Below, piece by piece: positions 4,841 through 20,079 of a DNA stretch of 64,000 bases. The stretch's first letter is position 1; every line of letters starts with the position of its first letter. Where the stretch lies: contig NZ_CM001441.1 of the NCBI RefSeq assembly GCF_000244895.1, positions 2,066,226 through 2,130,225 on the forward strand, given 5' to 3'. Both the position numbers and the translations under genes were made by a program. The notes under the pieces are model-generated. The model did no database searches. It was not told where the DNA came from and worked only from the letters and a program-made list of their open reading frames with translations. This DNA comes from Desulfosporosinus youngiae DSM 17734 (GTDB lineage Bacteria; Bacillota; Desulfitobacteriia; Desulfitobacteriales; Desulfitobacteriaceae).

Positions 4841-5776
4841 ATGATTATTAGTGCGAGCCGGAGAACGGATATTCCGGCATTTTATTCACAGTGGTTCATG
4901 AACAGGCTGAAAGAGGGCTATGCCCTAATCCCCAATCCCCGCAATCCAGGCCGTTTGGGACGAGTGGAGCTTTCCGCCGATCATGTGGACTGCATTGTAT
5001 TTTGGACCAAAAATTCTATACCCATGCTGGACAAACTGGAACAACTTGAGGCAATGGGGTATGCCTTCTATACTCACTTTACCTTAACTCCTTACGGCCA
5101 AGAGATGGAGAGCTGCCTGCCTCCAAAACCCAAGCTTCTGCAGGCATTTATAAAATTGTCCAAACAGACAAGCTCTCAGCGTGTCGTGTGGCGATATGAT
5201 CCAATTATTGTCGATGCCGACCACTCAATATCCTGGCATATTGAGCAGTTCACCAGGATGTGCGGAGAGCTGCATCCTTACACAAAACGTTGTATTTTAA
5301 GTTTCATCGATCCGTATAAAAGTATCAGCGATAAATTCAGAGCAATGACCCGGGATGAAATGCTGGCGATTGCTTCCGGCTTCTCTGAGGCGGCTCAAAA
5401 ATACGATATGGCACTTTACACCTGTGCGGAAGAAATAGAGCTTGCTGAATACGGCATTGGTCATGCTGCTTGCATCGATCGGAAATGGGTAGAAGAGATT
5501 ATCGGGTGCCGCATTACAGCGAAAAAGGACGCAAACCAACGCGCGGCATGTGGCTGTATCGAAAGTGTGGATATTGGTGTATATGACACCTGCACACACG
5601 GCTGCCTTTATTGTTATGCTACGTCCGACCGAAAGACAGCGCTCGGGCGCTTGAGGGCGCATGATACCCGCGCCCCTATGATTAACGGCTATCCTAAGGG
5701 CAACGAAATTGTTACCGACCGCACTGCATCATCAAAAAAAATAAAGCAAATAAGTATGTTTCAGGAGGAATTTTGA
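4841..5776 (+). CDS. DUF1848 protein with C-terminal cysteine cluster
   Basis: 311 residues from the ATG at 4841, chosen because AGGTGG lies 6 bp upstream; an in-frame TTG at 4790 would add 17 unlike residues. It begins with the family signature IISASRRTDIPAF and has FWTKNSIPMLDKL and VVWRYDPII motifs. The C-terminal part carries a cysteine cluster (CGCIESVDIGVYDTC, HGCLYCYA) resembling an iron-sulfur binding segment; the CxxCYA end recalls radical SAM-associated domains. The function is unknown. It lies 63 bp after the MocR gene on the same strand and could be co-transcribed with it. Confidence 0.75.
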   Translation: MIISASRRTDIPAFYSQWFMNRLKEGYALIPNPRNPGRLGRVELSADHVDCIVFWTKNSIPMLDKLEQLEAMGYAFYTHFTLTPYGQEMESCLPPKPKLLQAFIKLSKQTSSQRVVWRYDPIIVDADHSISWHIEQFTRMCGELHPYTKRCILSFIDPYKSISDKFRAMTRDEMLAIASGFSEAAQKYDMALYTCAEEIELAEYGIGHAACIDRKWVEEIIGCRITAKKDANQRAACGCIESVDIGVYDTCTHGCLYCYATSDRKTALGRLRAHDTRAPMINGYPKGNEIVTDRTASSKKIKQISMFQEEF

Positions 5777-5852
5777 TGTTTAGGAGACCAGGATCAGATT
5801 AATCTCATCTAGTATAACGGTTTAAGAAAAGAATAAGTGCTTCGAAAGCACT

Positions 5853-5886
5853 TCTTAAGGTTTTGCTAAGTTAAAATTTCAACATC
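5853..5886 (+). promoter_or_regulatory. VanR-type box and promoter before vanX
   Basis: TCTTAAG (5853-5859) and GCTAAG (5865-5870) are separated by 5 bp, an OmpR-type tandem half-site layout. A weak -10-like CAACAT lies 10 bp after the box. The same box with the same 10-bp distance to a -10-like hexamer occurs at 8755, 10666 and 13621. This suggests a promoter that needs activation by the VanR encoded at 8845. Confidence 0.7.
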
Positions 5887-5936
5887 GCCTGTCTGATTTC
5901 GCTAAGATGACATTGTCGAATCAGACAGGCTTTTAT
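5887..5936 (+). terminator. Leader hairpin plus T-run before vanX (conserved with operon 1)
   Basis: GCCTGTCTGATTTCG pairs with CGAATCAGACAGGC (one bulged T) and is followed by TTTTAT. The equivalent hairpin before transporter operon 1 (13655-13704) keeps the pairing through one compensatory change (T-A to C-G) and two G-U substitutions, which favours an RNA structure. It may stop readthrough from upstream or act as an attenuator or 5' stabilising hairpin. Confidence 0.6.
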
Positions 5937-6001
5937 GCGCTAAAAGCAAAGCAGAATGCAGTTTGAGAGGATAAGTCGTTGACACTGAAAGGAGAAAGAC
6001 G

Positions 6002-6610
6002 ATGAAAAATGATTTTGTCTTTGTAGACGAGTTTGTATCCGGAATACGCTGGGATGCTAAATACGCCACCTGGGATAATTTTACCGGCAAACCGGTGGAC
6101 GGATATGCAGCCAATCGAATTGTCGGTACCAGAGCTTTGTGCTTAAGCCTAGAAAAAGCACGGGAAAACGCCGCATCCTTTGGCTTTGGCTTGCTTCTTT
6201 GGGATGGTTATCGCCCTCAAAGCGCCGTAGATTGTTTTCTGCGCTGGTCAAAACAGCCGGAAGACGGCCGGACGAAACTGAAACACTATCCGAATATTGA
6301 CAGATCTGAGATAGTAGCAAAAGGATATGTGGCCGCTAAGTCGGGCCACACCCGGGGCAGCGCCATTGATTTAACCCTTTATTATTTAGCTGACGGTACA
6401 CTTGTGCCTATGGGCGGCGGCTTTGATTTAATGGATTCAGTTTCACATCACGGAGCAAAGGGAATCACCCAAGCGGAAGGGAGGAACCGTCAATACCTTT
6501 GTTCTATTATGGAGGCCAGCGGTTTTGTTGCCTATGCTTGTGAGTGGTGGCATTACACATTGAAACACGAACCTTATCCCAACACTTATTTTGATTTTCT
6601 CATCGCCTAG
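6002..6610 (+). CDS. vanX: VanX-type D-Ala-D-Ala dipeptidase
   Basis: 202 residues, the same length as VanX of VanA and VanB clusters. It is a cytoplasmic zinc dipeptidase that hydrolyses D-Ala-D-Ala so that normal peptidoglycan ends are not made. Visible family motifs: VRWDAKYATWDNFTGKPVDGY-like opening (here GIRWDAKYATWDNFTGKPVD), LLWDGYRPQSAV carrying the catalytic arginine, the zinc motif SGHTRGSAIDLTL (His and Asp ligands) and EWWHY (catalytic Glu, third zinc His). All key residues are present, so it should be active. The GAAAGGAG ribosome binding site fits the ATG. It is the first gene of the cluster, downstream of a VanR-type box and leader hairpin. Confidence 0.95.
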   Translation: MKNDFVFVDEFVSGIRWDAKYATWDNFTGKPVDGYAANRIVGTRALCLSLEKARENAASFGFGLLLWDGYRPQSAVDCFLRWSKQPEDGRTKLKHYPNIDRSEIVAKGYVAAKSGHTRGSAIDLTLYYLADGTLVPMGGGFDLMDSVSHHGAKGITQAEGRNRQYLCSIMEASGFVAYACEWWHYTLKHEPYPNTYFDFLIA

Positions 6611-6705
6611 CTGAGCTGAAATAACGCTCAGGCCGCAGCGGAGTTGAAATCCTTAAAACGGCCGCTGGGGCGGTGAAACCATATTCCTGAAAAGGGGTCT
6701 CAGAC

Positions 6706-7545
6706 ATGAAACGAAAAAGAATGACTCAGTTGTTTCCACTCTTATTGCCGTTGCGCAGGACACAAAGAAGATTATTCTTCTATGCCGAAATGTACTTTGA
6801 CCGGAACCGCTATGCAAAGGCAAAGGCTCCGGAGTTTTTGCCTTTTTGCCTCTATGAAACCAAGTCGAAGCTTGTCAATGAAAATACGGGCTTTGATCTG
6901 AAATATCAGGAAAACAAGGTGTTTAATCTGCGCCTTGCCGCAGAGACTGTCAATGGCCTGATCATACGCCCTGGTGAAACATTTTCATTTTGGCAGCGTG
7001 TGAGATACGCCGAGAAAAATCAGCGGTATAAGGACGGTTTGTGCGTGGTGAACGGCGAATTGGTCACGGTACCGGGAGGCGGTTCGTGTCATCTCAGCAA
7101 TTTGCTGTTCTGGCTGTTTCTGCATACTCCCCTCACCATTGTAGAACGGCATCCTCATCAGCTTAAGGATTTTCCTTCGCCTGATGAGGACGAACCTGAT
7201 GGTGTGGACGCTACGGTCAGCGAAGGGTGGCTGGATTTAAAGGTCAAAAACAACACCAATCTTACCTTCCAGATTAAAATAGCCTTCAATGAACCTTACA
7301 TTTATGGCTCTATTTTTATCGATCAGGCCATAGGGCATCGTTACGAGATTATTAATCGCGATAAGAGCTATTTCCGAAAAGAAGGGAAAACCTTTGAGCG
7401 GGTTTCTGTCTGCCGGCAGAGGATAGACAGCAAATCTAAACAAGTTGTCTCAGAAAACATTCTTTATACAGATGTATGTGAAATTGGCTATTTGCTTCCG
7501 GAAGGAACGGCCATCACGGAAGAAAAGGAATTATTCGAACTTTGA
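6706..7545 (+). CDS. vanW: VanW family protein
   Basis: 279 residues, typical of VanW from vanB-type clusters. The VanW domain occupies most of the protein, with the stretches RPGETFSFWQRV, GGGSCHLSNLLFW and the closing DVCEIGYLLPEG. VanW is an accessory protein of unknown biochemical role; the family also occurs outside resistance clusters. No signal peptide is obvious. It follows vanX after a 95-bp spacer containing an imperfect GC-rich inverted repeat and precedes the ligase by a short gap, so the three probably form one transcript. Confidence 0.9.
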   Translation: MKRKRMTQLFPLLLPLRRTQRRLFFYAEMYFDRNRYAKAKAPEFLPFCLYETKSKLVNENTGFDLKYQENKVFNLRLAAETVNGLIIRPGETFSFWQRVRYAEKNQRYKDGLCVVNGELVTVPGGGSCHLSNLLFWLFLHTPLTIVERHPHQLKDFPSPDEDEPDGVDATVSEGWLDLKVKNNTNLTFQIKIAFNEPYIYGSIFIDQAIGHRYEIINRDKSYFRKEGKTFERVSVCRQRIDSKSKQVVSENILYTDVCEIGYLLPEGTAITEEKELFEL

Positions 7546-7559
7546 AAGGGGAAAGCGGC

Positions 7560-8594
7560 ATGGATAAGTTGAAAATCGCAATTATCTTCGGAGGCTGTTC
7601 CGAAGAACATCCCATCTCCGTTAAATCTGCGCAAGAGGTCGCTAAAAACCTTGATCTGGAAAAGTATGAACCTTTCTATATCGGGATTACGAAAAATGGT
7701 GTTTGGAAGCTTTGTCCCCGCCCTGAGGCCAATTGGGAAAAGGGCAGCTGCCGTTCGGTTATGCTGTCACCGGACAGAAGCGTCCACGGCTTGCTTGTTC
7801 TGGAGCAGGGACAATACAAAACGATCCCTTTGGATATGGTGTTTCCCGTTCTGCATGGCAAACTTGGGGAGGATGGTGCAATGCAAGGTTTGTTGGAGCT
7901 TTCCGGCATCCCCTATGCAGGCTGCGATGTCCAAAGTTCTGCTCTGTGTATGGACAAATCCCTTGCTTATATCGTCGCTGGCAAGGCGGGAATTGCTACG
8001 CCAAATTTCCGGACTGTCACGGCCAAGGGGACTATTGATGCCGACGGGCTTACTTATCCTGTTTTTGTCAAGCCGGCCCGTTCCGGTTCATCCTTCGGCG
8101 TCAGTAAGGTATGCCGAAAAGAAGAATTGCTGAGTGCGGTGGCAATCGCAAGACAATATGACTCCAAGGTGTTGATTGAAGAGGCTGTCGCCGGCAGCGA
8201 GGTGGGATGTGCCATATTAGGGAACGATCCGGATTTAATGGCAGGCGAGGTCGATCAAATTTCTCTGTCCTATGGTTTTTTCAGAATCCATCAGGAGAAT
8301 GAGCCTGAAAAGGGTTCTGAAAACTCAACATTTATCGTTCCCGCCGACATTTCGGCAGAGGCGCGCCTGCAGGTTCAGGAGACAGCAAAAGCCGTCTATC
8401 GCGCCTTGGGATGCAGGGGACTGGCGCGGGTGGATATGTTCCTGAAGGAAGATGGAAAAGTAATCCTTAACGAGGTTAATACCTTGCCCGGCATGACCTC
8501 ATACAGCCGTTATCCGAGAATGGTGGCGGCCGCAGGGTTAAGCTTTGCCGAAGTGATCGATCGGATTGTGGCGTTGACATTGCAAGGAAAATAA
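7560..8594 (+). CDS. D-Ala:D-Lac ligase, VanA/VanB type
   Basis: 344 residues from the ATG at 7560 (AAAGGGGA ribosome binding site; a TTG 18 bp upstream is less likely). It is an ATP-grasp ligase that makes the D-Ala-D-Lac depsipeptide replacing D-Ala-D-Ala in the peptidoglycan precursor, which lowers glycopeptide binding. The N-terminus IIFGGCSEEHPISVKSA, the KPARSGSSFGV loop and LNEVNTLPGMTSYSRYP are family hallmarks. The omega-loop FRIHQENEPEKGSEN has the histidine used by VanA/VanB to choose D-lactate, instead of the K-Y pattern of D-Ala-D-Ala ligases. Oddly, no vanH (D-lactate dehydrogenase) lies beside it. I leave the symbol empty because the exact Van class cannot be read without alignment; vanA, vanB and vanI-type are candidates. 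Confidence 0.9.
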   Translation: MDKLKIAIIFGGCSEEHPISVKSAQEVAKNLDLEKYEPFYIGITKNGVWKLCPRPEANWEKGSCRSVMLSPDRSVHGLLVLEQGQYKTIPLDMVFPVLHGKLGEDGAMQGLLELSGIPYAGCDVQSSALCMDKSLAYIVAGKAGIATPNFRTVTAKGTIDADGLTYPVFVKPARSGSSFGVSKVCRKEELLSAVAIARQYDSKVLIEEAVAGSEVGCAILGNDPDLMAGEVDQISLSYGFFRIHQENEPEKGSENSTFIVPADISAEARLQVQETAKAVYRALGCRGLARVDMFLKEDGKVILNEVNTLPGMTSYSRYPRMVAAAGLSFAEVIDRIVALTLQGK

Positions 8595-8612
8595 TGCTTC
8601 AGGTTTAAGGTT

Positions 8613-8647
8613 AAGGGACAGTTTGCCGATAGGGCAGACTGTCCCTT
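8613..8647 (+). terminator. Hairpin after the ligase gene
   Basis: AAGGGACAGTTTGCC pairs imperfectly with GGCAGACTGTCCCTT. It is a strong stem but is followed by GAAGTCTC rather than a T-run, so termination efficiency is uncertain. It separates the vanX-vanW-ligase unit from vanRS. Confidence 0.55.
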
Positions 8648-8754
8648 GAAGTCTCTAAAAAATCAGGGAATTGATGCTTAAAACTCTTGCTATTGACAAA
8701 CTTGATATTTATATTAGTGTGTGAAAGACTATCGGTAGTGCGATATTCAGAAAG

Positions 8755-8788
8755 TCTTAAGGTTTCCATAAGTAAAAAGCCATAAAAT
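8755..8788 (+). promoter_or_regulatory. VanR-type box and promoter before vanR
   Basis: TCTTAAG (8755-8761), 5 bp, CATAAG (8767-8772), then TAAAAT (8783-8788) 10 bp after the box. The geometry equals that of the vanX box, which implies positive autoregulation of vanRS. Confidence 0.7.
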
Positions 8789-8844
8789 GAAATTATTGCT
8801 CCGCGGTATAATAATCAGGGGAGTATATGCTTTAGAGAAAGAAG

Positions 8845-9552
8845 ATGACGCTTTTGGCTGCCAATATTTTAATCGTTGATGATGAACAAGCGATTGCCGA
8901 TTTGGTTGAAGTTTATCTGAACAATGAAAACTATCATATCTTCAAATTTTATAACGGCCAGGATGCCCTTCGTTGTATTGAAAATGAAAAACTGGACCTC
9001 GCCATTTTGGATGTCATGCTTCCTGATGTAGACGGTTTTTCAATCTGCCGGCAAATCCGGGAAAAGCATAATTTTCCGGTGATCATGCTGACAGCCAAAG
9101 AAGAAGAAATCGATAAGATCACCGGGCTGACCTTAGGTGCGGACGACTATATCACCAAGCCCTTCCGTCCCCTGGAGCTGATTGCCCGTGTCAAGGCGCA
9201 GCTGCGGAGATTTACCAAATATAATTCTGCGGAGCCCAATCAGGAAGAGCATTTAATAGCCTTTTCCGGCCTGGTCTTGGACATAGAAACTCATGAATGT
9301 ACCTTGAATGAAAAAAAGCTGTCGCTCACGCCTACGGAATTCTCCATTCTTTGGGTCCTTTGTTCCAATCGCGGCCGGGTGGTCAGTTCGGAAGAATTGT
9401 TCCATGAGGTATGGGGAGATAAGTACTTCGCCAACAGTAATAATACGGTCATGGTTCATATCCGGCATTTAAGGGAAAAAATGCAGGACAGCGCCGAACA
9501 TCCTAAATATATCAAAACGGTCTGGGGGGTTGGCTATAAAATTGAAAAGTGA
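8845..9552 (+). CDS. vanR: VanR-type OmpR-family response regulator
   Basis: 235 residues: receiver domain (residues ~8-120) with acidic pocket VDDE, phosphoacceptor in LAILDVMLPD, conserved MLTAKEE and KPF lysine, then an OmpR/PhoB winged helix (LTPTEFSILWVLCSNRG, HIRHLREKM, IKTVWGVGYKIEK). The near-identity to VanR of the VanA type is recognisable, particularly in the C-terminal DNA-binding domain. It should activate the cluster by binding the tandem boxes described at 5853, 8755, 10666 and 13621. It overlaps the sensor gene, as in vanA clusters. Confidence 0.92.
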   Translation: MTLLAANILIVDDEQAIADLVEVYLNNENYHIFKFYNGQDALRCIENEKLDLAILDVMLPDVDGFSICRQIREKHNFPVIMLTAKEEEIDKITGLTLGADDYITKPFRPLELIARVKAQLRRFTKYNSAEPNQEEHLIAFSGLVLDIETHECTLNEKKLSLTPTEFSILWVLCSNRGRVVSSEELFHEVWGDKYFANSNNTVMVHIRHLREKMQDSAEHPKYIKTVWGVGYKIEK

Positions 9553-10660
9553 GAAGGACAAACGCAGGAATGATTATTCAAAATTAAAAAGGAAAGTACT
9601 TGGGCAAATGTTTCTGATTACAGTTGCCGCCGCTGTGACTGTTTTTCTGTTGCGCAATATCCTGCGCGGACAGATCGGAGATCGTATCGTTCAATTTTTA
9701 GTCCACGCTTATCATTTTAGAAATTCGGACGCACAGATGATCTATCAGTTGGTGATTCGCAACAATATGTCCACGATCCTTTTTGGTGTTATTATAATAT
9801 GTTTAGTTATTTTTTCAGTTTCCTGGTTCACTAAATATTTTGATGAAATCAGCGCCGGAATGGATAAACTTGCTGAGGAATCCGATGCTGAAATCACCTT
9901 AGCACCGGAATTGGATTTTATGGAAAATAAGCTGAATCAGCTAAAAAACAACTTGGAAAAACAAAAGAAAGCCGCCCTTGCGGCCGAGCAGCGCAAGAAT
10001 GATTTGGTAGTTTACTTAGCTCATGATATCAAGACCCCTCTGACCTCTGTTATAGGATACTTAAGTCTTCTCGATGAAGCCCCTGATATGCCTTCTGAAC
10101 AGAAGGCAAAATATGTGGGTATTACCTTGGAAAAGGCTTATCGCTTAGAGCAGCTGATCAATGAGTTTTTTGAGATTACCAGATTTAATCTGCAAAGAAT
10201 TGTTTTGAATAAAGAAAAAATCAATTTACAGTTCATGCTCCAGCAGATGGCCGATGAATTCTATCCCATGTTGGCTCCCCAGGCCAAGCAGGTGGCCGTC
10301 AATGTGCCTGACGGCTTAACACTGTGGGGAGATGCGGACAAACTAGCCCGTGTCTTCAATAACATTCTGAAAAATGCCCTGGCCTATAGCTATGAAAACA
10401 GCGTCATTGACATTGCTGCCGGTCAGCAGGACAAAAATGTCGTTATAACCTTTACGAATCAGGGAAATCCCATCCCCCAGGCCAAGCTGGAAACTATTTT
10501 TGAAAAGTTTTACCGCTTAGATTCGTCACGTTCCACAGACACCGGCGGAGCAGGGCTGGGTTTGGCAATCGCCCGGGAAATTGTCACGACTCACGCCGGC
10601 ACAATCTCTGTGGAAAGCAACCCGGAAACTACGACATTTACAGTAAAGCTTCCGTTATAA
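9530..10660 (+). CDS. vanS: VanS-type sensor histidine kinase
   Basis: 376 residues with a TTG start overlapping vanR by 23 bp; the opening AIKLKSEKD and NDYSKLKRKV resembles VanA-type VanS, supporting this start. Two membrane helices (about 25-45 and 83-102) flank a short extracytoplasmic loop. The H box is YLAHDIKTPLTSVIGYLSLL, the N box NNILKNALAYS, and the G box DTGGAGLGLAIA. The H-box region through FFEITRFNLQ matches the VanA sensor closely. It should phosphorylate VanR in response to glycopeptide or an envelope signal, and dephosphorylate it otherwise. Confidence 0.92.
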   Translation: MAIKLKSEKDKRRNDYSKLKRKVLGQMFLITVAAAVTVFLLRNILRGQIGDRIVQFLVHAYHFRNSDAQMIYQLVIRNNMSTILFGVIIICLVIFSVSWFTKYFDEISAGMDKLAEESDAEITLAPELDFMENKLNQLKNNLEKQKKAALAAEQRKNDLVVYLAHDIKTPLTSVIGYLSLLDEAPDMPSEQKAKYVGITLEKAYRLEQLINEFFEITRFNLQRIVLNKEKINLQFMLQQMADEFYPMLAPQAKQVAVNVPDGLTLWGDADKLARVFNNILKNALAYSYENSVIDIAAGQQDKNVVITFTNQGNPIPQAKLETIFEKFYRLDSSRSTDTGGAGLGLAIAREIVTTHAGTISVESNPETTTFTVKLPL

Positions 10661-10665
10661 GGAAA

Positions 10666-10698
10666 TCTTAAGAAGTTCATAAGCTGGAATTCCAACAT
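10666..10698 (+). promoter_or_regulatory. VanR-type box and promoter before the vanY-like gene
   Basis: TCTTAAG (10666-10672), 5 bp, CATAAG (10678-10683), then CAACAT (10693-10698) 10 bp after the box. The downstream AATTCCAACATAGC also resembles the vanX (AATTTCAACATCGC) and operon 1 (AATTACAACCTAGC) promoters. Confidence 0.65.
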
Positions 10699-10753
10699 AG
10701 CTCTTTGTTCTGTGCTTGAATAATATCAGTACAGAATAAGGAGTTGTTTTGTT

Positions 10754-11815
10754 ATGGTACGAAAAGTAAAAAGGAAAAAGTCAGGCATACTCAGATTTGC
10801 AGTACTTCTCTTGAAGGTTGGAATGGCTGCTTTTGTTTATAAATCCATCATTATGCCAGGATACCAGCACATCTTTGCCCAGGAATATGAGGATAAAACC
10901 ATGACGGCTTCAGCGTTGAAACCAGAATCCGAACCCTCTGTTTCCATATCTTCCGATCAACTGAACAGTTCTAATGCGATTCTGATCAATTTAAAAGATC
11001 ATAACATTCTGATGCAGAAAAACAGTGAAGAAAAAATCTATCCCGCTTCCTTAACGAAGATGATGACAGTCATTGTCGCCATAGAAAACCTGCCTGATTT
11101 CAAGAAAGAAATCACCCTTACCAATTCTGTGTTTCAGGGCCTGTCAGAAGCAGATGCATCTATGTCGGGTTTCCAGCCGGGTGAGAAGGTAAGGGTGATT
11201 GACCTTTTATATGGGGCTCTGCTTCCCAGCGGGGCAGAGTCTTGTGTCGGGCTTGCTGATTACATTGCAGGGTCGGAGAAGGACTTTGCCGGGATGATGA
11301 ATCAAAAAGCGGCAGGTCTGGGCATGCGCACCACACATTTTGAGAACTCAACCGGACTTCAGAATAAAAACCATTACACAACAGTCAAAGATCTGGCTGT
11401 TCTGCTCAGCTATGCTTTGCAAAATGATACGTTCCGGGAGATTTTTACTTCATCCCGTCATTCCATACAACCTACGAATAAGCATCCTGGCGGGATAACC
11501 TTTTACAGTACCATGTTTGAAGAACTCAACAATCAAAGCATTGCCGGCGGGAAAATCTTAGGAGGGAAGACCGGCTATACCCGTGAAGCCGGTCTATGTC
11601 TGGCGAGTCTCGCCAAAGTGGGCAACCAGGAATATATTCTGATTTCAGCCGGCGCCAAAGGAAATCATCAGTCGGAACAGTATAATATTAGCGATGCCTT
11701 AGCTGTATATAATAGTATAGGAAAGGATGATTATAACGTTAACTCAACAAAGGTACCCGGAGATGTTCAACACGATAAAAGGCGGTTGAACAATCCGCCT
11801 TTGAAGTTCAAGTAA
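10754..11815 (+). CDS. Serine D-Ala-D-Ala carboxypeptidase (S11; VanY-like role)
   Basis: 353 residues with one N-terminal membrane helix (about 13-32) and an extracytoplasmic peptidase S11 domain. Active-site motifs: SLTKMM (SxxK; nucleophile Ser), PSGAES (in place of the SxN motif) and GGKTGYT (KTG). It would remove the terminal D-Ala from pentapeptide ends, the job done by zinc VanY in VanA clusters; VanYD is a known serine-type counterpart. Unlike VanY of VanA, this protein should be penicillin-sensitive. It has its own VanR-type box, which supports membership of the van regulon. The C-terminal ~40 residues are basic and low in structure. A housekeeping DacA role is the alternative. Confidence 0.85.
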   Translation: MVRKVKRKKSGILRFAVLLLKVGMAAFVYKSIIMPGYQHIFAQEYEDKTMTASALKPESEPSVSISSDQLNSSNAILINLKDHNILMQKNSEEKIYPASLTKMMTVIVAIENLPDFKKEITLTNSVFQGLSEADASMSGFQPGEKVRVIDLLYGALLPSGAESCVGLADYIAGSEKDFAGMMNQKAAGLGMRTTHFENSTGLQNKNHYTTVKDLAVLLSYALQNDTFREIFTSSRHSIQPTNKHPGGITFYSTMFEELNNQSIAGGKILGGKTGYTREAGLCLASLAKVGNQEYILISAGAKGNHQSEQYNISDALAVYNSIGKDDYNVNSTKVPGDVQHDKRRLNNPPLKFK

Positions 11816-11819
11816 AATC

Positions 11820-11857
11820 AATCAACAACGGGCCGCATTTTCGGCCCGTTGTTGATT
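11820..11857. terminator. Bidirectional terminator
   Basis: AATCAACAACGGGCCG pairs with CGGCCCGTTGTTGATT around a short ATTT-type loop, T-rich on both sides. It closes the vanY-like gene and the convergent MerR gene. Confidence 0.8.
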
Positions 11858-11869
11858 TCACCGGTTGTG

Positions 11870-12415
11870 TTATTTTAAGATCATTTTCTGCAGCGCCTGT
11901 TTTTGTGCCTCATTAATGAGGGGCAGCATTTTTTTTAGCTTTGACTTTTTTTCTTCCGGAAGGTCTTTGAGGAAAGCTCTCATTTTTCCGGCCAGCTCGG
12001 GTGTTATATAATGACGTTCATTCATGCGGATCAACTCCATTATTTTTATTAATTGGTCTGAACTTATAGTTTGGTTAAATGACAGCAGTGTTTGCAGTTG
12101 TTCAAGCTCAGAGCGCAGCTTTTCCTTTATCTTTATCTGTTCCTTGACGATTTCCAGTTGAGCTTGAACGACGAGGAGAGGATTGAAATCAGGATTTTCC
12201 ATAAAGTTATGGATTTCTTCTAAGGAAAAGCCCAGTTGTTTCAGAGATAATATCTGCTGAAGTTTTAAGGCATCGGCCTTAGTGTAAAGCCGGTGGCCGG
12301 CTTCGGTAGTTTCGGAGGGGACTAATAGGCCTATTTGGTGATAATGGTGCAGTGTTCTGACTGTAATTCCACACTGGCTTGCAAGCTCACCGATTTTCCA
12401 AATAGTTTTTGGCAT
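11870..12415 (-). CDS. MerR family transcriptional regulator
   Basis: 181 residues. The N-terminal MerR helix-turn-helix and wing (KIGELASQCGITVRTLHHYHQIGLL, TEAGHRLYT) is followed by the dimerisation coiled coil (~residues 75-115, KEQIKIKEKLRSELEQLQTLL). The C-terminal part (RMNERHYITPELAGKMRAFL) lacks the cysteines of metal sensors and looks like the TipA/multidrug-type subgroup. The promoter has the classical MerR 19-bp spacer with the palindromic operator inside (12464-12482), so it controls its own gene by DNA distortion. No target gene is adjacent on the same strand; the ECF sigma gene is divergent. Confidence 0.85.
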   Translation of the reverse strand: MPKTIWKIGELASQCGITVRTLHHYHQIGLLVPSETTEAGHRLYTKADALKLQQILSLKQLGFSLEEIHNFMENPDFNPLLVVQAQLEIVKEQIKIKEKLRSELEQLQTLLSFNQTISSDQLIKIMELIRMNERHYITPELAGKMRAFLKDLPEEKKSKLKKMLPLINEAQKQALQKMILK

Positions 12416-12455
12416 TCTTTCACCTCGTTTCCGCAGGATTTTTGTCGACGAGTAA

Positions 12456-12486
12456 ATTATACAACCTGACGCTGCGTCAGGTGCAA
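12456..12486 (-). promoter_or_regulatory. MerR-type promoter with 19-bp spacer operator
   Basis: On the minus strand, -35 TTGCAC (12486-12481) and -10 TATAAT (12461-12456) are 19 bp apart. The spacer contains the perfect 9-1-9 palindrome ACCTGACGC-N-GCGTCAGGT (12464-12482). This overlong spacer is diagnostic of MerR-family regulation. Confidence 0.85.
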
Positions 12487-12586
12487 GAGGTTTTTAAATA
12501 TGGATGAAATTGGTATATTTAAATTTTATTAACCGGTGTAATATTTTTTAACTTAATGTGACTCATTATATGAGAGGGGGGTATCA

Positions 12587-13075
12587 ATGAAGGAAATTGA
12601 AAAAGTGTATTTTGAATATAAGCAGGATATCTATCATTATTTGTTAAGCCTGACTCATGATCCTGCCCTTTCGGAGGATTTGCTCTCAGAAACCTTTGTT
12701 AAGGCCATATTCTCTCTTCGTAATTTTAAAGGCAATTCCTCAATCAAAACCTGGCTGTTGGGGATTGCCCGCCATCTATGGCTGCAAAACCTGCGTAAAG
12801 TCAGACCCACGGTGGAATACAGCGATCTTTTAGATGTCTATGTGACAGACGGAACCATGGATAGGGTGATTGCCAAGCAAATAGCCGGTAGGGTCCGTGA
12901 GCTGCTGAAAACCAAAGATCAGCGCACCCAAAAGATAATCAGTATGCGTGTCAATGGGATAAGTTACTATGAAATCTCAGAGAAAATAGGTGTGTCGGAA
13001 AACTCCGCAAGAGTCATAGATTTCAGGACCAAAAAATGGCTTAGATCCGTTTTGGAAAGGGAGGAATTGATTTGA
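12587..13075 (+). CDS. ECF-type RNA polymerase sigma factor
   Basis: 162 residues: sigma region 2 (VYFEYKQDIYHYLLSLTHDPALSEDLLSETFVKA), with the DLLSETF segment of region 2.2-2.3 and FKGNSSIKTWLLGIARHLW of 2.4, then region 4 (ISYYEISEKIGVSENSARVIDFRTKKWLR). There is no region 1 or 3, as in ECF sigmas. It overlaps by 4 bp with a zinc-finger anti-sigma gene, the standard arrangement. The GAGAGGGGGG ribosome binding site is strong. The signal and target promoters cannot be read from the sequence. Confidence 0.88.
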   Translation: MKEIEKVYFEYKQDIYHYLLSLTHDPALSEDLLSETFVKAIFSLRNFKGNSSIKTWLLGIARHLWLQNLRKVRPTVEYSDLLDVYVTDGTMDRVIAKQIAGRVRELLKTKDQRTQKIISMRVNGISYYEISEKIGVSENSARVIDFRTKKWLRSVLEREELI

Positions 13076-13527
13076 AGGTGCCTTGTGAGATAATCCTGGA
13101 TTTGATACCCCTTGTGAAGGACAATGTTGCCAGCGAAGGCAGTATTAACTTGGTTTCGGAACATTTGAAGAGCTGTGCAAGCTGCAAGCTTGAGTTTGGC
13201 AAGGACGCCTTGCCAATCCCCAAAGAGGTTGATGATAGAAAAGTATTGTCTTTAATTAAGAAGAAACTTTTTCTTATCACCTCAGCACTATTATGCCTCG
13301 GAGCGATTATTGGCATGACAGTAAACCAAAGCACATCTCCAAACTTTATGCCGGTCATAATGATCGTCCTAAGCCTTGTTGTTATGGGGATACTAATCTT
13401 CAAATCCGACTGGAAAGGGGATGAAGGTGTGAGCAGATTTTTTCTGGGAAAAGCGATTGGGACAATGATTGTCTTTGCAATATTGGGAATTTACCTCTTG
13501 CTAAAATACGGACTTCATCTCTTTTAA
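13072..13527 (+). CDS. Zinc-finger anti-sigma factor, membrane-bound
   Basis: 151 residues with a TTG start overlapping the sigma gene stop. The N-terminal anti-sigma zinc-finger has His in VSEHLKSCASC (H-x3-C-x2-C), plus an upstream Cys in VPCEIILDLIPL. Three hydrophobic helices follow (about 62-80, 88-108, 125-145). It should hold the ECF sigma at the membrane until a signal arrives. Translational coupling keeps the pair balanced. Confidence 0.8.
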   Translation: MKVPCEIILDLIPLVKDNVASEGSINLVSEHLKSCASCKLEFGKDALPIPKEVDDRKVLSLIKKKLFLITSALLCLGAIIGMTVNQSTSPNFMPVIMIVLSLVVMGILIFKSDWKGDEGVSRFFLGKAIGTMIVFAILGIYLLLKYGLHLF

Positions 13528-13620
13528 AGAATTTGCTGAAATGTCATTTGCTGAACTGACGTATTCAAGAGCACGCCGTATACGACAGCATAAGAAAATA
13601 ATCAGTGCTTCATAAGAATT

Positions 13621-13653
13621 TCTTAAGATTTTGCTAAGTTAAAATTACAACCT
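13621..13653 (+). promoter_or_regulatory. VanR-type box and promoter before transporter operon 1
   Basis: TCTTAAG (13621-13627), 5 bp, GCTAAG (13633-13638), then CAACCT (13648-13653) 10 bp after the box. It lies in a block (13604-13704) that aligns without gaps to 5836-5936 before vanX, with 85 of 101 positions identical by my count. This is the strongest link between the transporter and the van regulators. Confidence 0.7.
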
Positions 13654-13654
13654 A

Positions 13655-13704
13655 GCCTGCCTGATTTCGGTAAGATGAAATTACCGAATCGGGCGGGCTT
13701 TTAT
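13655..13704 (+). terminator. Leader hairpin plus T-run before operon 1
   Basis: GCCTGCCTGATTTCGGTAA pairs with TTACCGAATCGGGCGGGC and is followed by TTTTAT. It is the counterpart of the vanX leader hairpin, with covarying bases. It lies between the box and the first gene, so it could attenuate the operon, or terminate readthrough from the anti-sigma gene. Confidence 0.6.
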
Positions 13705-13761
13705 ATTGCCGAAAGGAGGCGCGGACATGTTGCTTGGCCCATCACGCTTAGGGTGGTAACG

Positions 13762-14634
13762 ATGAGAACCGGAAAATTAACAACGAATAACGGCTGCCTG
13801 GCCTGGCTTTTCCTCGGGCCCAGCCTGCTGGGTTTTGCTCTTTTTTATTTGCTCCCCTTTGTCACCGGCTTTTACTATTCCCTGGTAGACAGTCCCCTTC
13901 ACGGCACCTTTGTCGGCTTACATAATTACGGCGCTTTGTTAAAAAACCCGAGCTTTCTATTAGCTCTGGGGAATACAGCCAAGTTCACTTTGATCTGTGT
14001 ACCTCTTAATCTGATTCTCTCCCTGGGAGTGGCCTTGTTATTGAATAAAAAGTTACCGGGCCGGAACCTGTTTCGCACCATCATGATCACTCCTTTGGTA
14101 GTACCCGTAGCCTCGGTTGTTTTGGTCTGGCAGGCTTTCTTTGATTTAAACGGCGTTTTAAATTCCCTGCTCCAGGCTCTGGGTTACCCGCCGGTGGACT
14201 GGATGAAAACCAACTGGTCCAGGATGGTGGTCCTGGCAGTTTATCTGTGGAAAAACATGGGTTACAGTGTCATCCTGTTTCTGGCCGGATTGCAGAATAT
14301 ACCGGCTGAATACTACGAAGCGGCCAGGATCGACGGGGCCGGCCGCTGGCAGGAGTTTTTCCGGATAACCCTGATTTACCTGACTCCCACTACTTTTTTT
14401 GTGTTTATTATCTCGATTATCAATTCCTTTAAAGTGTTCCGGGAGACCTATCTTATCTCCGGAGACTATCCCCATAACAGCATCTATATGCTCCAGCACT
14501 ACATGAACAATATGTTCATGGCTCTGGATTATCAAAAACTGACGTCCGCGGCCTTCATTATGGCTGCCTTTATCGTGACCGTCGTTTTACTGCTTTTTAT
14601 CGTGGAGAGAAAGATCACCAACCTGATTAATTAG
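13762..14634 (+). CDS. CUT1-type ABC permease, MalF/UgpA-like (operon 1)
   Basis: About 290 residues from the ATG at 13762 (AGGGTGG upstream). An in-frame ATG at 13675 would place the start inside the conserved leader hairpin, so I reject it. Six membrane helices are expected; the first is GPSLLGFALFYLLPFVTGFYY. The ATPase-contact EAA loop is EYYEAARIDGAGRWQEFFRI, typical of sugar/glycerol-phosphate importers. It pairs with the next permease. The gene order permease-permease-MFP-MacB-like-ATPase-binding protein is not a normal CUT1 operon. The substrate cannot be inferred. Confidence 0.88.
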   Translation: MRTGKLTTNNGCLAWLFLGPSLLGFALFYLLPFVTGFYYSLVDSPLHGTFVGLHNYGALLKNPSFLLALGNTAKFTLICVPLNLILSLGVALLLNKKLPGRNLFRTIMITPLVVPVASVVLVWQAFFDLNGVLNSLLQALGYPPVDWMKTNWSRMVVLAVYLWKNMGYSVILFLAGLQNIPAEYYEAARIDGAGRWQEFFRITLIYLTPTTFFVFIISIINSFKVFRETYLISGDYPHNSIYMLQHYMNNMFMALDYQKLTSAAFIMAAFIVTVVLLLFIVERKITNLIN

Positions 14635-14790: not shown

Positions 14791-15684
14791 ATGAGCGCAT
14801 TGAATCGGAACCGTCTGATAACAAAAGTACTTCAGACGACAGTATTGCTGGTACTGGCTGTCAGCTTCATTTTTCCTCTGGCTGTAACCATCACCAATTC
14901 ATTGATGAGTGAACAGGCAATCGCCGATAATTATGGTCCGGTGACGGACAAAAATTTAAGCAGCTATAAGGAAGATACTGCACATCACTTTGCCCGGTTC
15001 CAGCTGATCCCTGATGTGGTGGTGCTTAAACAGTATTACAACGTGCTCATTAAAAAGACCCAGTTTCTTTTCATGTTCTGGAATTCCGTGCTGATTACCT
15101 GCCCTATCGTCATTGGGCAAACGATAGTGGCAACCCTGGCGGCCTATGCCTTTGCCAAGCTGAAGTTCAGAGGCAGAAACCTTTTGTTTTTTTTGTATAT
15201 CATTGTGATGCTGATGCCCTTCCAGGTAACTCTGGTGCCCAATTATTTAATGGCCGGCTGGCTGGGCCTGCTGGGTAGCCGCTGGTCCATTATCTGGCCT
15301 GGCATCTTCAGCACCTTTGGCGTATTTCTTTTAAAACAGTACATGGAGCAAATACCGGACTCCTATCTTGAAGCGGCCCGGGTGGACGGAGCCAACCAGC
15401 TCCAGATTTTTCTCAAAATCATTCTGCCCATGTCCAGGGCCGGCATAGCAGCCATGGCTATCCTTGTGTTTATCGATAACTGGAACATGGTGGAACAGCC
15501 GTTGATTTTTTTACAGGACGCGGCCCAACAGCCGCTTTCCCTCTATCTTTCCCGAATCATCGACGGTGAAAAAGGCTTGGCCTTTGCCGCCTCCGTTCTA
15601 TATATGCTGCCGGCGTTGCTGAACTTCCTTTACGCCGAAAAATACTTGCTGGAAGGGATCCGGCTTTCCGGAATCAAAGGCTGA
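14791..15684 (+). CDS. CUT1-type ABC permease, MalG/UgpE-like (operon 1)
   Basis: 297 residues, ATG after GGGGAGAGGA. The first helix (VLLVLAVSFIFPLAVTITNSL) is followed by an unusually long extracytoplasmic loop containing EDTAHHFARFQLIPDVV, then TM helices with YIIVMLMPFQVTLVPNY and the EAA loop DSYLEAARVDGANQLQIF. Operon 2 has a clear paralogue with the same MSE-A--G/NY loop start. It would form the heterodimeric channel with the upstream permease. The 156-bp spacer before it carries a repeat-like GGGGATCAGGAGTCGGGCGT segment. Confidence 0.88.
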   Translation: MSALNRNRLITKVLQTTVLLVLAVSFIFPLAVTITNSLMSEQAIADNYGPVTDKNLSSYKEDTAHHFARFQLIPDVVVLKQYYNVLIKKTQFLFMFWNSVLITCPIVIGQTIVATLAAYAFAKLKFRGRNLLFFLYIIVMLMPFQVTLVPNYLMAGWLGLLGSRWSIIWPGIFSTFGVFLLKQYMEQIPDSYLEAARVDGANQLQIFLKIILPMSRAGIAAMAILVFIDNWNMVEQPLIFLQDAAQQPLSLYLSRIIDGEKGLAFAASVLYMLPALLNFLYAEKYLLEGIRLSGIKG

Positions 15685-15774: not shown

Positions 15775-17025
15775 TTGGGGAATGAAGCCATTGCAGGTGA
15801 TGTGCAAAGAAAAAAGTTGATCGGAAAGTTGGGCCTGCTGTTCCTGATGACGATGATCGGGTTAACTTTCTTCTCCAATACCATCAATAACTTTGCTCTG
15901 CCCAGGGTCCAAACGGTCCGGCCGGGGAGCGGGGCGTTAATAAAAGAAATATTCGGTGAAGGGACGGTGGAGGTCAAATCAACCCGGGAGGAATACGCAG
16001 CTGCCAATTTGCGGGTCAAGGAGGTCATGGTGGAGCAGGGGGACAGGGTCAGTAAAGGCCAGCCCATCCTGAGCTTGGACGTAGACAGCCTTAACCTGGA
16101 GGTAGAGACCCTTAGACTGGAGGCGGACATCCAACAGTCCAATTATCTGGATGAACAGGCCCGCTACCAGCAGCTGCAGCTTTCCCTGGTGGGGGCCTTG
16201 AAGGATCAGGAGCAAAAACAACGGGATTACAACAACCTGAAAGCGCTGTTTGAGAAGGGTGCTGAAACGGCAGTAAACCTGCAGAATGCTGAAAGGGACT
16301 TGGCGGAGGAGGAAAGCAACTGTCAGACTATCCGGCTTAATCTGGAAATACAAGCCAGAAAGGTGGAAAACCTGGCTAAACAGGTGGCCAACACGATCAG
16401 AAAGGCGGATGCCCTGGCCAAAGAGGCGGCCAACAAGGGCGTCTATACAGCGCCCGTGGACGGCCTGATCACAGAGCTGAATTTCCCCGCGGGGTCGATG
16501 ACCAATAACTCCCTGCCCCTGTATAAATTGGCCGATCTGGGGCAGGGGTTCCGGCTGATCGTGCCCATTGACAATGATGTGGTTGATTACGTCAAACCCG
16601 GAGATACGGTGAGTGTTAATATTCTCTCCCTGGGGGATAAAAGGACCGAGGGGAAAATTGACAAGATCGTGGAAAACAGCCGGCACAACGGGGATAAAAA
16701 GGATTTGTGGATCGACGTCTCTTTGGAAGGCCTGACCGGCGGCGAGAAGGGAGAAATATATTTAAGCAAAAAAACCAAGCCTTACGCTACCCTCATACCG
16801 AACAGCGCCGTTTATGACGACAGCAGCGGCTCCTATGTCTTCGTTCTGGAATCAAGAAAAGGGCCTTTAGGTGCGGAGAACTATTTGCAAAAGGTGGACG
16901 TCAATGTGGAAGACAGCGATAATAATAAGTCTGCGCTCACAGATATGGTGATGGGCGAAGTGGTGATGCAAAGCAATAAACCGCTGGAGGACGGGGACAG
17001 AGTTCTGAAGGAGGCGGCAAATTGA
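15775..17025 (+). CDS. HlyD/MacA-type membrane-fusion (adaptor) protein (operon 1)
   Basis: 416 residues, TTG start after AGGGAG. One N-terminal membrane anchor (about 19-38) is followed by an external barrel-sandwich (lipoyl-like) domain split by a long alpha-helical hairpin (~residues 105-220, heptad-rich, DEQARYQQLQLSLVGALKD), closing with YTAPVDGLITELNFPAG, a beta-barrel domain and a membrane-proximal domain. Such proteins normally bridge exporters such as MacB, RND or YknXYZ. It is abnormal to find one inside a CUT1 importer operon. It overlaps the next gene by 4 bp. Confidence 0.85.
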   Translation: MGNEAIAGDVQRKKLIGKLGLLFLMTMIGLTFFSNTINNFALPRVQTVRPGSGALIKEIFGEGTVEVKSTREEYAAANLRVKEVMVEQGDRVSKGQPILSLDVDSLNLEVETLRLEADIQQSNYLDEQARYQQLQLSLVGALKDQEQKQRDYNNLKALFEKGAETAVNLQNAERDLAEEESNCQTIRLNLEIQARKVENLAKQVANTIRKADALAKEAANKGVYTAPVDGLITELNFPAGSMTNNSLPLYKLADLGQGFRLIVPIDNDVVDYVKPGDTVSVNILSLGDKRTEGKIDKIVENSRHNGDKKDLWIDVSLEGLTGGEKGEIYLSKKTKPYATLIPNSAVYDDSSGSYVFVLESRKGPLGAENYLQKVDVNVEDSDNNKSALTDMVMGEVVMQSNKPLEDGDRVLKEAAN

Positions 17026-18434
17026 AACCGGCCCACTTGAAACCGGCTAAATCAGCCTATCCGGCCTATCTTGTTCTGGCCCTGGGCCTGTTGGTTTTAA
17101 CCTGGAGCACCCTCCTGGGGTCATCCCTGCCCGCTAAGTTGGCGGATCTGGGCGGCCTGCACAAAACCGATAAAATCACCGCCACCTGGCTGGGCAATTT
17201 CCATCAGCCGGAGGCTGCCTCTTTTACCCTGAAAGATATGAGGCAGCTAAGCCAATACAACCTCCGGGATTATGATCTGGCTTACGCCGTGGAGGCTTCA
17301 ACGTCTGCCGCCTATCAAAAGAACCAGAACCCAGCCCAAGTGCTGGGGGTGAATGACAGGTATGATCAATTCCAGCAAATAAACTTGAAAGCGGGCGGTT
17401 TTTTAACCGTCGAACAGGAAAACCAGCAGGTCGCCGTCATCGATGAGGACCTGGCGCAGGCTCTTTTTCAGAACCGCAATGTAGTGGGCCTGGAGATAGA
17501 ACTATATGGCCGGAAATTCAGAATAGTTGGGGTGGCCGGAGCTGACCATTCCCTGATTGGGACACTGACGGACAGGGGCTACGGCACAGTGTACATACCG
17601 GCGAAAATATTGTTGGAACTGGAAGCGGATTCCCGAATAACCTTCTTGGCAGTTGAAACCAAGGATGCCGGCACCACGGGCCGCAATACCGCTGTTTTGA
17701 CAACGGCCCTGACCTCTATCGGTCAGGACCCCGCCAACTACAAAATCATCGATTATAACCTGGCGGGCCTCCTGATGGAACAAGGGAACCTGCTCCGCAA
17801 TTTCCTGGCGGGGGCAGTAGCCATGGTGATGCTTTTCGCTTTGCTCAGGGGAAAAATAAGGGGCCTTGATCATTTCTGCCGCCAGAGACTCCGGGATAAC
17901 TATTGGCGGGAGATGATTAAGGAGGATGCCGTCAGGCTGATGCTTGATATGGCGGTAATCTTAGCGCTTGTTGCAGTGATGCTTTTAGTGTGGAAATTAA
18001 TCAGATTCAGCTTATATATTCCGCCGGAAAACATACCCGATGAACTGATTGATATTTCGTTTTGGGTTGACCTCATTCAAAGGGGGATTCAAACCAGGAT
18101 GCAAAGCGCCGGCGATGCAGCACCGCCGGGAGAAGTTCAATTGAATGTTCTTAATACCATCCGGAACTGGAACTTGTTTTTAAATATCTTTCTTGGTTGG
18201 CCGCTGTTCTGGCTGGGACTTTATCAGACCCGGCTGTTGGGGGAAAAACTGCTCAAAGTTGAAGTGTTCTGCAGCGTTTTCCTACTGGCCGCCTTAAGTC
18301 TGGGCACCGCCTTGCTGTGGATCATAAAAATGACTCCTGTCATCGGGACCGGGGAGGCGTTGCTGGTATTCAGCTCTGTATTTTTAACCGCACTGACAAA
18401 AATAGGGCAAATGATCAGAGGTCACACCTGCTGA
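17022..18434 (+). CDS. Membrane protein with MacB-periplasmic-core-like domain (operon 1)
   Basis: 470 residues, TTG start overlapping the adaptor gene. One N-terminal helix (about 17-36) is followed by a ~220-residue external domain with MacB-PCD-like features: VLGVNDRYDQFQQINLKAGGFL, QQVAVIDEDLAQALF, VGLEIELYGRKFRIVGVAG. About five further hydrophobic segments follow (roughly 264-282, 306-328, 386-402, 415-438, 440-460), with an extracytoplasmic loop between. Unlike MacB it has no ATPase domain, and its C-terminal helices are not a canonical FtsX domain. It is probably the partner of the preceding adaptor. Domain assignment is by pattern only. Confidence 0.65.
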   Translation: MKPAHLKPAKSAYPAYLVLALGLLVLTWSTLLGSSLPAKLADLGGLHKTDKITATWLGNFHQPEAASFTLKDMRQLSQYNLRDYDLAYAVEASTSAAYQKNQNPAQVLGVNDRYDQFQQINLKAGGFLTVEQENQQVAVIDEDLAQALFQNRNVVGLEIELYGRKFRIVGVAGADHSLIGTLTDRGYGTVYIPAKILLELEADSRITFLAVETKDAGTTGRNTAVLTTALTSIGQDPANYKIIDYNLAGLLMEQGNLLRNFLAGAVAMVMLFALLRGKIRGLDHFCRQRLRDNYWREMIKEDAVRLMLDMAVILALVAVMLLVWKLIRFSLYIPPENIPDELIDISFWVDLIQRGIQTRMQSAGDAAPPGEVQLNVLNTIRNWNLFLNIFLGWPLFWLGLYQTRLLGEKLLKVEVFCSVFLLAALSLGTALLWIIKMTPVIGTGEALLVFSSVFLTALTKIGQMIRGHTC

Positions 18435-18545: not shown

Positions 18546-18568
18546 TCAAACGAATAGGAGGGCAGCGG

Positions 18569-19684
18569 ATGGCGAGTTTACATCTGAAAAATCTAGCTAA
18601 GACCTACCCAGGCGGAGTTACGGCGGTCAGGGATTTCTCTCTGGAAATAAGGGATCAGGAATTCTTAATCCTGGTAGGTCCTTCCGGCTGTGGCAAAACA
18701 ACCGTATTGAGGATGATTGCCGGCCTGGAGGAAATTTCAGCCGGTGAATTATATATTGATGACCGGCTGGTTAATGGCATGGCTGCCAAAGACCGGGATA
18801 TCGCCATGGTTTTTCAAAATTATGCCCTTTATCCCCATCTGTCGGTCTATGACAACATGGCTTTCGGACTTAAGTTGAGAAAGCTGCCCAAGGCTGAAAT
18901 CAGGCAAAATGTCCAGGAAGCGGCCAGGATTCTGGGACTTGAAGATCTTCTCAAACGCAAACCCAAGGAACTTTCCGGCGGGCAAAGGCAAAGGGTGGCC
19001 CTGGGTCGGGCCATTGTCAGAAAAGCTAAGGTTTTCCTGATGGATGAGCCTCTGTCCAACCTGGATGCCCAGTTGAGAACCCAGATGAGAATAGAAATTG
19101 CCAGGCTCCATAAAGATCTGCAGACAACCTTTGTTTATGTAACCCATGATCAAACCGAAGCCATGACCATGGGTACCAGAATCGTGGTGATGAAGGATGG
19201 CCTGATCCAGCAAATCGACAGCCCGCAAGCCATCTATGACCACCCGGTCAATATGTTTGTGGCCGGTTTTCTCGGCAGCCCGGGGATGAACTTTCTGGAA
19301 GTTTTAATTATCGAGGAAAAGGGCTGTATTTTTGCCAAACTGGCCGACGCTCTGCTGCCTGTTCCCGCTGCCGGGGGACAAAGGTTAAAAGAGCAGGGGT
19401 ATCTGGATCGGAAAGTGGTCCTGGGGATTAGAGCGGAGCACCTCTGCGGCAGCGGAGATTTTTTGAATGGCCATCCCGGGTGTGCTTTGTGCGGGAGGCT
19501 GGAGTTCAGCGAATTGAGAGGGGCTGAAACTTACCATTACGTGAGGATAGCCGGCAGGGAGGTGGTTGTCAGGGTGAGTCCGGAGCTGCGCGCCGAAACA
19601 GGACAGGAAGTCAGGGTGGGTTTTAATATGGCCAAGGCCCATTTTTTCGATCAGGAAAGTGGGGTGAACGTCATTAGACAGTAG
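18569..19684 (+). CDS. MalK/UgpC-type ABC ATPase (operon 1)
   Basis: 371 residues, ATG after AGGAGGG. Walker A GPSGCGKTT, Q-loop VFQNYALYPHLSVYDN, signature LSGGQRQR, Walker B VFLMDEPLSNLDA and H-loop VTHDQTEAMT are all intact. The C-terminal ~125 residues form a TOBE-type regulatory domain as in MalK. It is the only ATPase in the operon, so it must drive the CUT1 permease pair. Whether it also serves the adaptor/MacB-like pair is open. The paralogue in operon 2 also starts MASL. Confidence 0.92.
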   Translation: MASLHLKNLAKTYPGGVTAVRDFSLEIRDQEFLILVGPSGCGKTTVLRMIAGLEEISAGELYIDDRLVNGMAAKDRDIAMVFQNYALYPHLSVYDNMAFGLKLRKLPKAEIRQNVQEAARILGLEDLLKRKPKELSGGQRQRVALGRAIVRKAKVFLMDEPLSNLDAQLRTQMRIEIARLHKDLQTTFVYVTHDQTEAMTMGTRIVVMKDGLIQQIDSPQAIYDHPVNMFVAGFLGSPGMNFLEVLIIEEKGCIFAKLADALLPVPAAGGQRLKEQGYLDRKVVLGIRAEHLCGSGDFLNGHPGCALCGRLEFSELRGAETYHYVRIAGREVVVRVSPELRAETGQEVRVGFNMAKAHFFDQESGVNVIRQ

Positions 19685-20025: not shown

Positions 20026-20079
20026 GATTAACTGAGTACCTGAATAGTCACGAATACTTAAAGAAAAAGGGGTGCTTTG

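Follow-up and report, generated by a model that had tools for sequence, protein, structure and literature searches.

A probable VanR-type promoter shared by vanX and an ABC transporter operon in the van locus of Desulfosporosinus youngiae

In the van locus of Desulfosporosinus youngiae DSM 17734, the D-Ala-D-Ala dipeptidase gene vanX and an operon for an ATP-binding cassette (ABC) transporter are preceded by closely similar blocks of DNA, and the question raised by this locus is what joins a resistance enzyme and a transporter behind one upstream sequence. The locus was analysed within a 64,000-nucleotide stretch of the genome (the window; RefSeq assembly GCF_000244895.1, contig NZ_CM001441.1, positions 2,066,226 to 2,130,225 of the forward strand), the numbering of which is used below. 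A preliminary description of this DNA had placed the transporter in the VanR regulon, and the sequence comparisons reported here support that assignment through boxes unique in the genome and a co-oriented array that recurs before homologous transporters. The whole is best explained (with a probability of about 0.8) by a block that would act as a VanR-activated promoter, accompanied by a terminator-like hairpin, for both vanX and the transporter operon.

The shared block and its repeat arrays

The blocks at 5836-5936 and 13604-13704 were found on recount to align without gaps at 85 of 101 identical bases, as previously stated, and the likeness reaches 13 bp further upstream (114 bp, 84%). When the vanX block was compared with every 101-base stretch of the window, the highest scores were 101 (self), 85 (13604), 51 (10649, at the promoter of a gene for an S11-family D,D-carboxypeptidase), 47 and 45, and the best score on the minus strand of the window was 45. 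Genome-wide (a single contig of 5,660,978 bp) there were two copies (E 3e-63 and 2e-29), all 14 other matches having E > 0.6. The genes downstream are indeed unrelated, the first belonging to Peptidase_M15 (vanX) and the second to BPD_transp_1 (a permease).

A box, an AT-rich stretch, a hairpin and TTTTAT are all present within the block; the box, however, is not a two-part unit but an array of five 11-bp TAAG repeats. Arrays were searched for by scoring TAAG every 11 bp (TAAG-N7 units), and the two five-site arrays were the top scorers in the window, those before vanR and the S11 gene being shorter:

5823..5870, plus strand: VanR-type array before vanX, half-sites at 5823, 5834, 5845 (AAAG), 5856 and 5867; 19 of 20 half-site bases
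13591..13638, plus strand: VanR-type array before the transporter, half-sites at 13591, 13602 (TCAG), 13613, 13624 and 13635; 19 of 20
8747..8772, plus strand: array before vanR (TCAG, TAAG, TAAG), with TATAAT at 8807-8812; TAAG scoring
10658..10683, plus strand: three exact half-sites before the S11 gene; TAAG scoring

The same direct-repeat unit is present at the regulator's own promoter and at the candidate target promoters, and both the regulator VanR and the kinase VanS are encoded in the genome, above the cut-offs of the NCBIfam models used to name them (NF033117 and NF033091). The exact pattern TCTTAAG-N5-SMTAAG was found at four sites in 5.66 Mb, before vanX, vanR, the S11 gene and the transporter; since the pattern was derived from those four sites, the informative part is that it has no match elsewhere in the genome. 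Exact triple TAAG arrays number three in the 5.66-Mb genome, at the S11 gene, at the transporter and at G000:C1:3579912-3579937. This third array adjoins 68 bp that match the 3' end of vanS and its array at 78% (a vanS-like relic), and sits between two related short genes. Over 30 copies of the element, exact TAAG was seen at phases 1 to 5 in 12, 22, 28, 29 and 29 copies, respectively (one copy being a base out of register).

Conservation beside homologous transporters

The DNA block was present in 7 of 45 family genomes (own included), and G003, which belongs to a second genus, has the transporter directly after vanRS and behind the block. Homologues of the MacB-like membrane protein, encoded by the fourth gene of the operon, were detected at E 1e-10 in 3 of the 45 family genomes, and at E 1e-20 in 4 of 73 genomes of the order; further searches gave matches in 4 of 398 genomes of the phylum and 11 of 113 genomes of the class of G279. 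An alignment scan of named genomes with this protein returned 13 loci, including those of Formimonas warabiya, Desulfocucumis palustris, Desulforamulus aeronauticus, Desulfotruncus arcticus, Gracilibacter, Desulfosporosinus fructosivorans, Geosporobacter and Anaerosolibacter, and a plasmid collection contained no match at E 1e-15.

A common order in these loci (designated by L numbers) is vanR, vanS, a short array, the S11 gene, a long array with hairpin, the transporter, often a second long array, and then a ligase. A co-oriented triple array was observed upstream of permease 1 in 17 of 20 homologous transporter loci, at a distance of 500 bp or less in 16 of them (with vanW fragments between in L118 and L155) and of 939 bp in L125, where vanW lies between; left out of this count were L121 and L171, which start inside the operon, and L083, L084 and L172, which are second fetches of L125, L127 and L130. 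In 421,200 bases of loci there were no arrays on the minus strand and no matches to the reversed motif. All five loci read after the motif had been fixed (L155 and L167-L170) carried the array, L170 being nearly identical to L119, and diverged lineages in which permease 1 is 63-64% and the MacB-like protein 33-36% identical have retained it.

The array persists beside ligases of the VanI type (D-Lac) and the VanG type (D-Ser), and where no van ligase was found. VanG typing covers the Desulfocucumis ligase only (570.8 bits over a cut-off of 495), the gene for which overlaps or precedes a gene of the alanine racemase family; similar ligases are encoded in L119, L123 and L167. The VanI query gave one distant match each in G229, G279 and G497 (37-42% over about residues 91-348), probably to the housekeeping ligase, and a search for VanX at E 1e-10 in 8 genomes gave no match in 4, one of which is a small metagenome-assembled genome (MAG). 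The link between transporter and array is thus independent of any one ligase chemistry.

Hairpin, start site and competing explanations

The positions of the hairpins and of the predicted -10 elements are as follows:

5887..5936, plus strand: hairpin and TTTTAT overlapping the vanX promoter; -22.6 kcal/mol, z -5.78
13655..13704, plus strand: hairpin and TTTTAT overlapping the transporter promoter; -29.9 kcal/mol, z -7.37
5903..5908, plus strand: predicted -10 TAAGAT of the vanX promoter, in the hairpin loop, from conservation; predicted start near 5915
13671..13676, plus strand: predicted -10 TAAGAT of the transporter promoter, from conservation; predicted start near 13683

A stable GC-rich hairpin, of the kind found in intrinsic terminators, is formed by both blocks, and five of six folded copies had z -3.8 or lower. 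Pairing was examined on 23 copies, that is, the 30 copies minus 3 identical ones and 4 in which no 3' arm could be recognised; 91.0% of cells were paired compared to at most 42.5% in slid controls, and both-side changes were seen in 13 cells against a shuffle mean of 2.5 (0 of 500 shuffles as high).

The preliminary description had placed a -10 region in the block, by implication TAAAAT beside the box. The most conserved candidate is instead TAAGAT in the hairpin loop, 36 bp after the first base of the last half-site, where TAAGAT (27) or, in a diverged group, TAGAAT (5) occupies 32 of 35 copies, the others being one copy read a base out of register and the hexamers TAAGAG and TAAACT. A sigma-70 scan listed neither shared promoter. 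In the text of PMC4405338, a poor -35 is described for VanR-G, preceded by three direct repeats of 12 bp, with a footprint from -100 to -43 and a -10 of TACAAT; relative to the starts predicted in the present locus, the array would extend from about -92 to -45, which would fit that spacing. The 13675 ATG falls inside the hairpin, and the likely start of the permease gene is 13762.

The hairpin had also been taken for a transcribed leader, a reading that was revised, since the start of transcription is probably spanned by the hairpin. With TAAGAT in the loop the predicted start falls at the 3' arm, so that mRNA started by VanR could not form the hairpin and read-through RNA could; the hairpin is probably not a leader, and most likely acts like a terminator overlapping the promoter, a likeness in action and not membership of the class.

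The origin of the transporter promoter is indicated by a further feature:

13575..13601, plus strand: fossil C-terminal end of an S11 protein of the short form (AVYDSIRK, stop), joined to the transporter array and matching ALAVYNSIRK-stop

In L118, L119, L120, L122, L123 and L125 the S11 protein ends in ALAVYNSIRK-stop, and its last codons overlap the first half-sites. The S11 gene of D. youngiae itself ends 1.8 kb upstream of the fossil and has a longer tail, common to L168 and L169. Because of this fossil the transporter promoter is read as the relic of an S11-transporter junction, and a promoter borrowed from vanX was rejected; the two operons do have a promoter in common, as had been claimed, but the transporter copy was not simply taken from vanX. 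Within the best explanation, the transporter is an old core member of the VanR regulon and not a recent borrower of the vanX promoter. Between the long-tailed S11 gene and the short-form fossil, both of which contain AVYNSI or AVYDSI, lie MerR, extracytoplasmic function (ECF) sigma and zinc-finger genes (11703-13601). An insertion or recombination at 11703-13601 is likely; since the resident S11 gene is of the long-tailed form of L168 and L169, a simple MerR/ECF insertion is weakened and recombination between S11 forms is equally possible. Copies of the element also adjoin broken vanR, vanS, vanW and vanX pieces in L057, L059, L060, L061 and L062, and the block seems to be a recombination point at which van gene order is reshuffled.

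Several observations weigh against a VanR-activated promoter with a terminator-like hairpin, or narrow what may be drawn from it. With one mismatch allowed, the box had 45 matches in the genome compared to 54 for a reversed control, and the triple TAAG 58 compared to 76; because these totals do not exceed the controls, no weaker sites or further regulon members are claimed. L082, L124 and L130 lack the array, and all three have a divergent two-component system instead; L127 has an intact transporter with another two-component system upstream, and its vanR is broken. No close VanR was found in the fetched stretch of L126 or L128 (best 44%, L128), and no MalK-type ATPase gene in L126, L128 or L129, in which five of the six genes were seen and of which L126 reaches its contig end at that point. 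Most loci have about 90% protein identity, conservation thus partly reflecting common descent or block transfer, and the 17 loci with arrays amount to roughly three diverged lineages rather than independent cases. In D. youngiae the last gene may be uncoupled by a 259-bp repeat between the ATPase and solute-binding genes. As to the hairpin, neither the count of pairs with a double change (3) nor that of pair types exceeded what shuffles gave (82 and 249 of 500), a terminator scan listed neither copy, and the U-tract is weak, with only TTTTAT where intrinsic terminators have a run of about 7-8 U. The two -10 candidates are alike in their mean match to TATAAT (4.06 and 4.14), so that the choice of TAAGAT rests on conservation and spacing.

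Were transcription to start just after the TAAAAT beside the array, the hairpin would be a 5' leader attenuating or stabilising the mRNA. TAAAAT matches TATAAT at 5 of 6 positions in both copies in the window, and a strong conserved hairpin with a short U-tract is what such a leader would show. The array would then abut the -10, unlike the -100 to -43 footprint of VanR-G (PMC4405338) and unlike the vanR promoter of this locus, in which TATAAT begins 38 bp after the first base of the last half-site. TAAAAT is moreover found in 10 of 35 copies, compared to the 32 with a loop hexamer; the 3' arm is unrecognisable (by eye) in 4 of 30 copies that have kept the array, and the transporter copy of G003 folds weakly (z -1.75). 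A leader is on these grounds unlikely. Control of the transporter by another regulator is considerably less likely still. The ECF sigma gene (12587-13075) lies directly upstream in D. youngiae, a second transporter operon in the window has an OmpR-family regulator (28424-29197), and OmpR-family regulators can share half-site types. However, the S11 end overlaps the array in the six sampled loci named above and lies about 0.1 kb from it in L168 and L169, leaving no room for an ECF gene, and ECF control was rejected on this basis; the second operon has no exact triple TAAG array.

Least probable of all, and rejected, is a block that is a passive recombination duplicate with no regulatory meaning for the transporter. 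The copies next to fragments of vanW, vanX and vanR in several genomes do imply that the block moves, but the array stays before the transporter in diverged lineages and its half-sites outlast the hairpin arm. More room is left for a sugar importer of the ordinary kind that became caught up in the van locus and brings no benefit against glycopeptides, since the solute-binding protein and ATPase resemble sugar uptake systems. This is nonetheless doubtful: the link to the array is kept beside ligases of the D-Lac and D-Ser types and where no van ligase was found, the transporter is accompanied by HlyD- and MacB-type partners in 20 of the 20 loci compared, and paralogues also lie beside two-component systems.

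Under the preferred VanR reading, VanS would sense a glycopeptide, or the wall damage resulting from it, and phosphorylate VanR; phosphorylated VanR would bind the 11-bp-spaced TAAG half-sites at about -92 to -45 and recruit RNA polymerase to a promoter the -35 of which is poor and the -10 of which is TAAGAT. A promoter of this kind would drive vanX and a second one the transporter operon (two permeases, adaptor, MacB-domain protein, ATPase and solute-binding protein), and through the shorter arrays vanRS and the S11 carboxypeptidase would be controlled in the same way. The hairpin with TTTTAT would terminate read-through from upstream genes, leaving expression dependent on VanR.

The van locus, the transporter and their meaning

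The gene order from 6002 is vanX, vanW, vanI, vanR, vanS, the S11 carboxypeptidase gene, a MerR gene, the ECF sigma gene, a zinc-finger protein gene and the transporter:

6002..6610, plus strand: vanX, D-Ala-D-Ala dipeptidase; PF01427 (Peptidase_M15)
6706..7545, plus strand: vanW; NF033128, 466.6 bits, cut-off 365
7542..8594, plus strand: vanI ligase; NF000372, 755.9 bits, cut-off 700
8845..9552, plus strand: vanR; NF033117, 426 bits, cut-off 350
9530..10660, plus strand: vanS; NF033091, 407.8 bits, cut-off 400
10754..11815, plus strand: S11-family D,D-carboxypeptidase, long-tailed form; PF00768
12587-13075: ECF sigma factor gene
13727..13759, plus strand: leader open reading frame MLLGPSRLGW, ten codons, strong Shine-Dalgarno sequence; ends 2 bases before the permease ATG
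13762..14634, plus strand: CUT1-type permease 1; BPD_transp_1
14791..15684, plus strand: CUT1-type permease 2; BPD_transp_1
15775..17025, plus strand: HlyD/RND-type adaptor; TIGR01730 match below its cut-off
17022..18434, plus strand: membrane protein with a MacB periplasmic core domain; MacB_PCD only
18569..19684, plus strand: MalK/MsmX-type ATPase; family match
20077..21456, plus strand: solute-binding protein with an oligosaccharide-binding fold; family and structure comparison

An Rfam scan of 5000-22900 gave no family at the gathering score. The leader open reading frame looks like a device for translational coupling to permease 1; an identical peptide is encoded in L167, one two residues longer in L169 and a shorter one in L123, and its equivalent in G003 is a truncated vanW start. 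The 259-bp repeat (19767-20025) has a second copy, 91% identical and in opposite orientation, upstream of the second operon (29241-29495); both have internal inverted repeats and resemble a miniature inverted-repeat transposable element.

The genes vanX, vanW, vanI, vanR and vanS are those of the vanI cluster of Kruse et al. (2014; PMC4229326), the text of which gives D. youngiae as vanI-positive, without murF and moderately resistant; in the present locus, too, murF is absent beside vanI. That text places vanH outside the cluster, whereas vanH-like 2-hydroxyacid dehydrogenase genes were seen directly before vanI in Formimonas (L118:15047-16015) and in a Herbinix MAG (L129:17117-18073). With the enterococcal promoters (vanA P_H and vanG P_YG, in the text of PMC4405338) the block shares an OmpR-family VanR and direct repeats upstream of a poor -35. 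The enterococcal promoters have one to three 12-bp units, (T/C)CGTANGAAA(T/A)T, compared to up to five 11-bp TAAG units here, where the block would also drive a transporter and a hairpin overlaps the promoter.

The operon has the two BPD_transp_1 permeases, MalK-type ATPase and solute-binding protein of a CUT1 ABC importer, the ATPase resembling MsmX-type proteins and the solute-binding protein resembling the oligosaccharide binders CbpC and Lmo0181; a structure model of the latter protein (pLDDT 79.0) showed a general sugar-binding fold at low identity and indicated no substrate. It differs from such importers in its extra HlyD-type and MacB-domain proteins and in its VanR-type promoter. An adaptor and a MacB periplasmic core domain (residues 98-232 of the fourth protein) are shared with MacAB tripartite efflux systems, but the MacB-like protein lacks the ATPase domain of MacB itself and has MacB_PCD only; its structure model (mean pLDDT 50.6) was too poor for use.

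The second operon (26980-36145; transporter genes 29610-36145) contains the same six gene types, with identities to the first of 46-48% for the permeases, 53% for the ATPase and 25-28% for the others, and lies beside a divergent two-component system of its own. Transporters of this kind seem to be accompanied by two-component systems, and on the comparisons made here that of operon 1 is most likely VanRS.

The text of PMC4229326, figures aside, makes no mention of an ABC transporter, promoter, operon or terminator, and literature searches, again figures aside, turned up no account of this transporter as a member of van clusters. It probably belongs to the response to vancomycin-type antibiotics and has been overlooked there. 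Its job is the least certain part of this account, our best guess being uptake or removal of a sugar-containing ligand under glycopeptide attack, either wall glycan fragments or the glycosylated drug. Possible, and put forward only tentatively, is that VanRS, the S11 carboxypeptidase and the transporter form an old glycopeptide-response module of anaerobic Firmicutes, able to protect without a target-changing ligase, to which D-Lac and D-Ser ligase cassettes were added later behind copies of a portable promoter-terminator element.

Clusters of van genes are usually viewed as a sensor with wall-precursor enzymes, and the conservation of a transporter under the same control suggests that one step has gone unstudied. 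The finding bears on how anaerobes handle glycopeptides, the transporter being retained whether the ligase is of the D-Lac type, of the D-Ser type or not found, and a portable promoter-terminator element suggests a route by which van gene order may be reshuffled.

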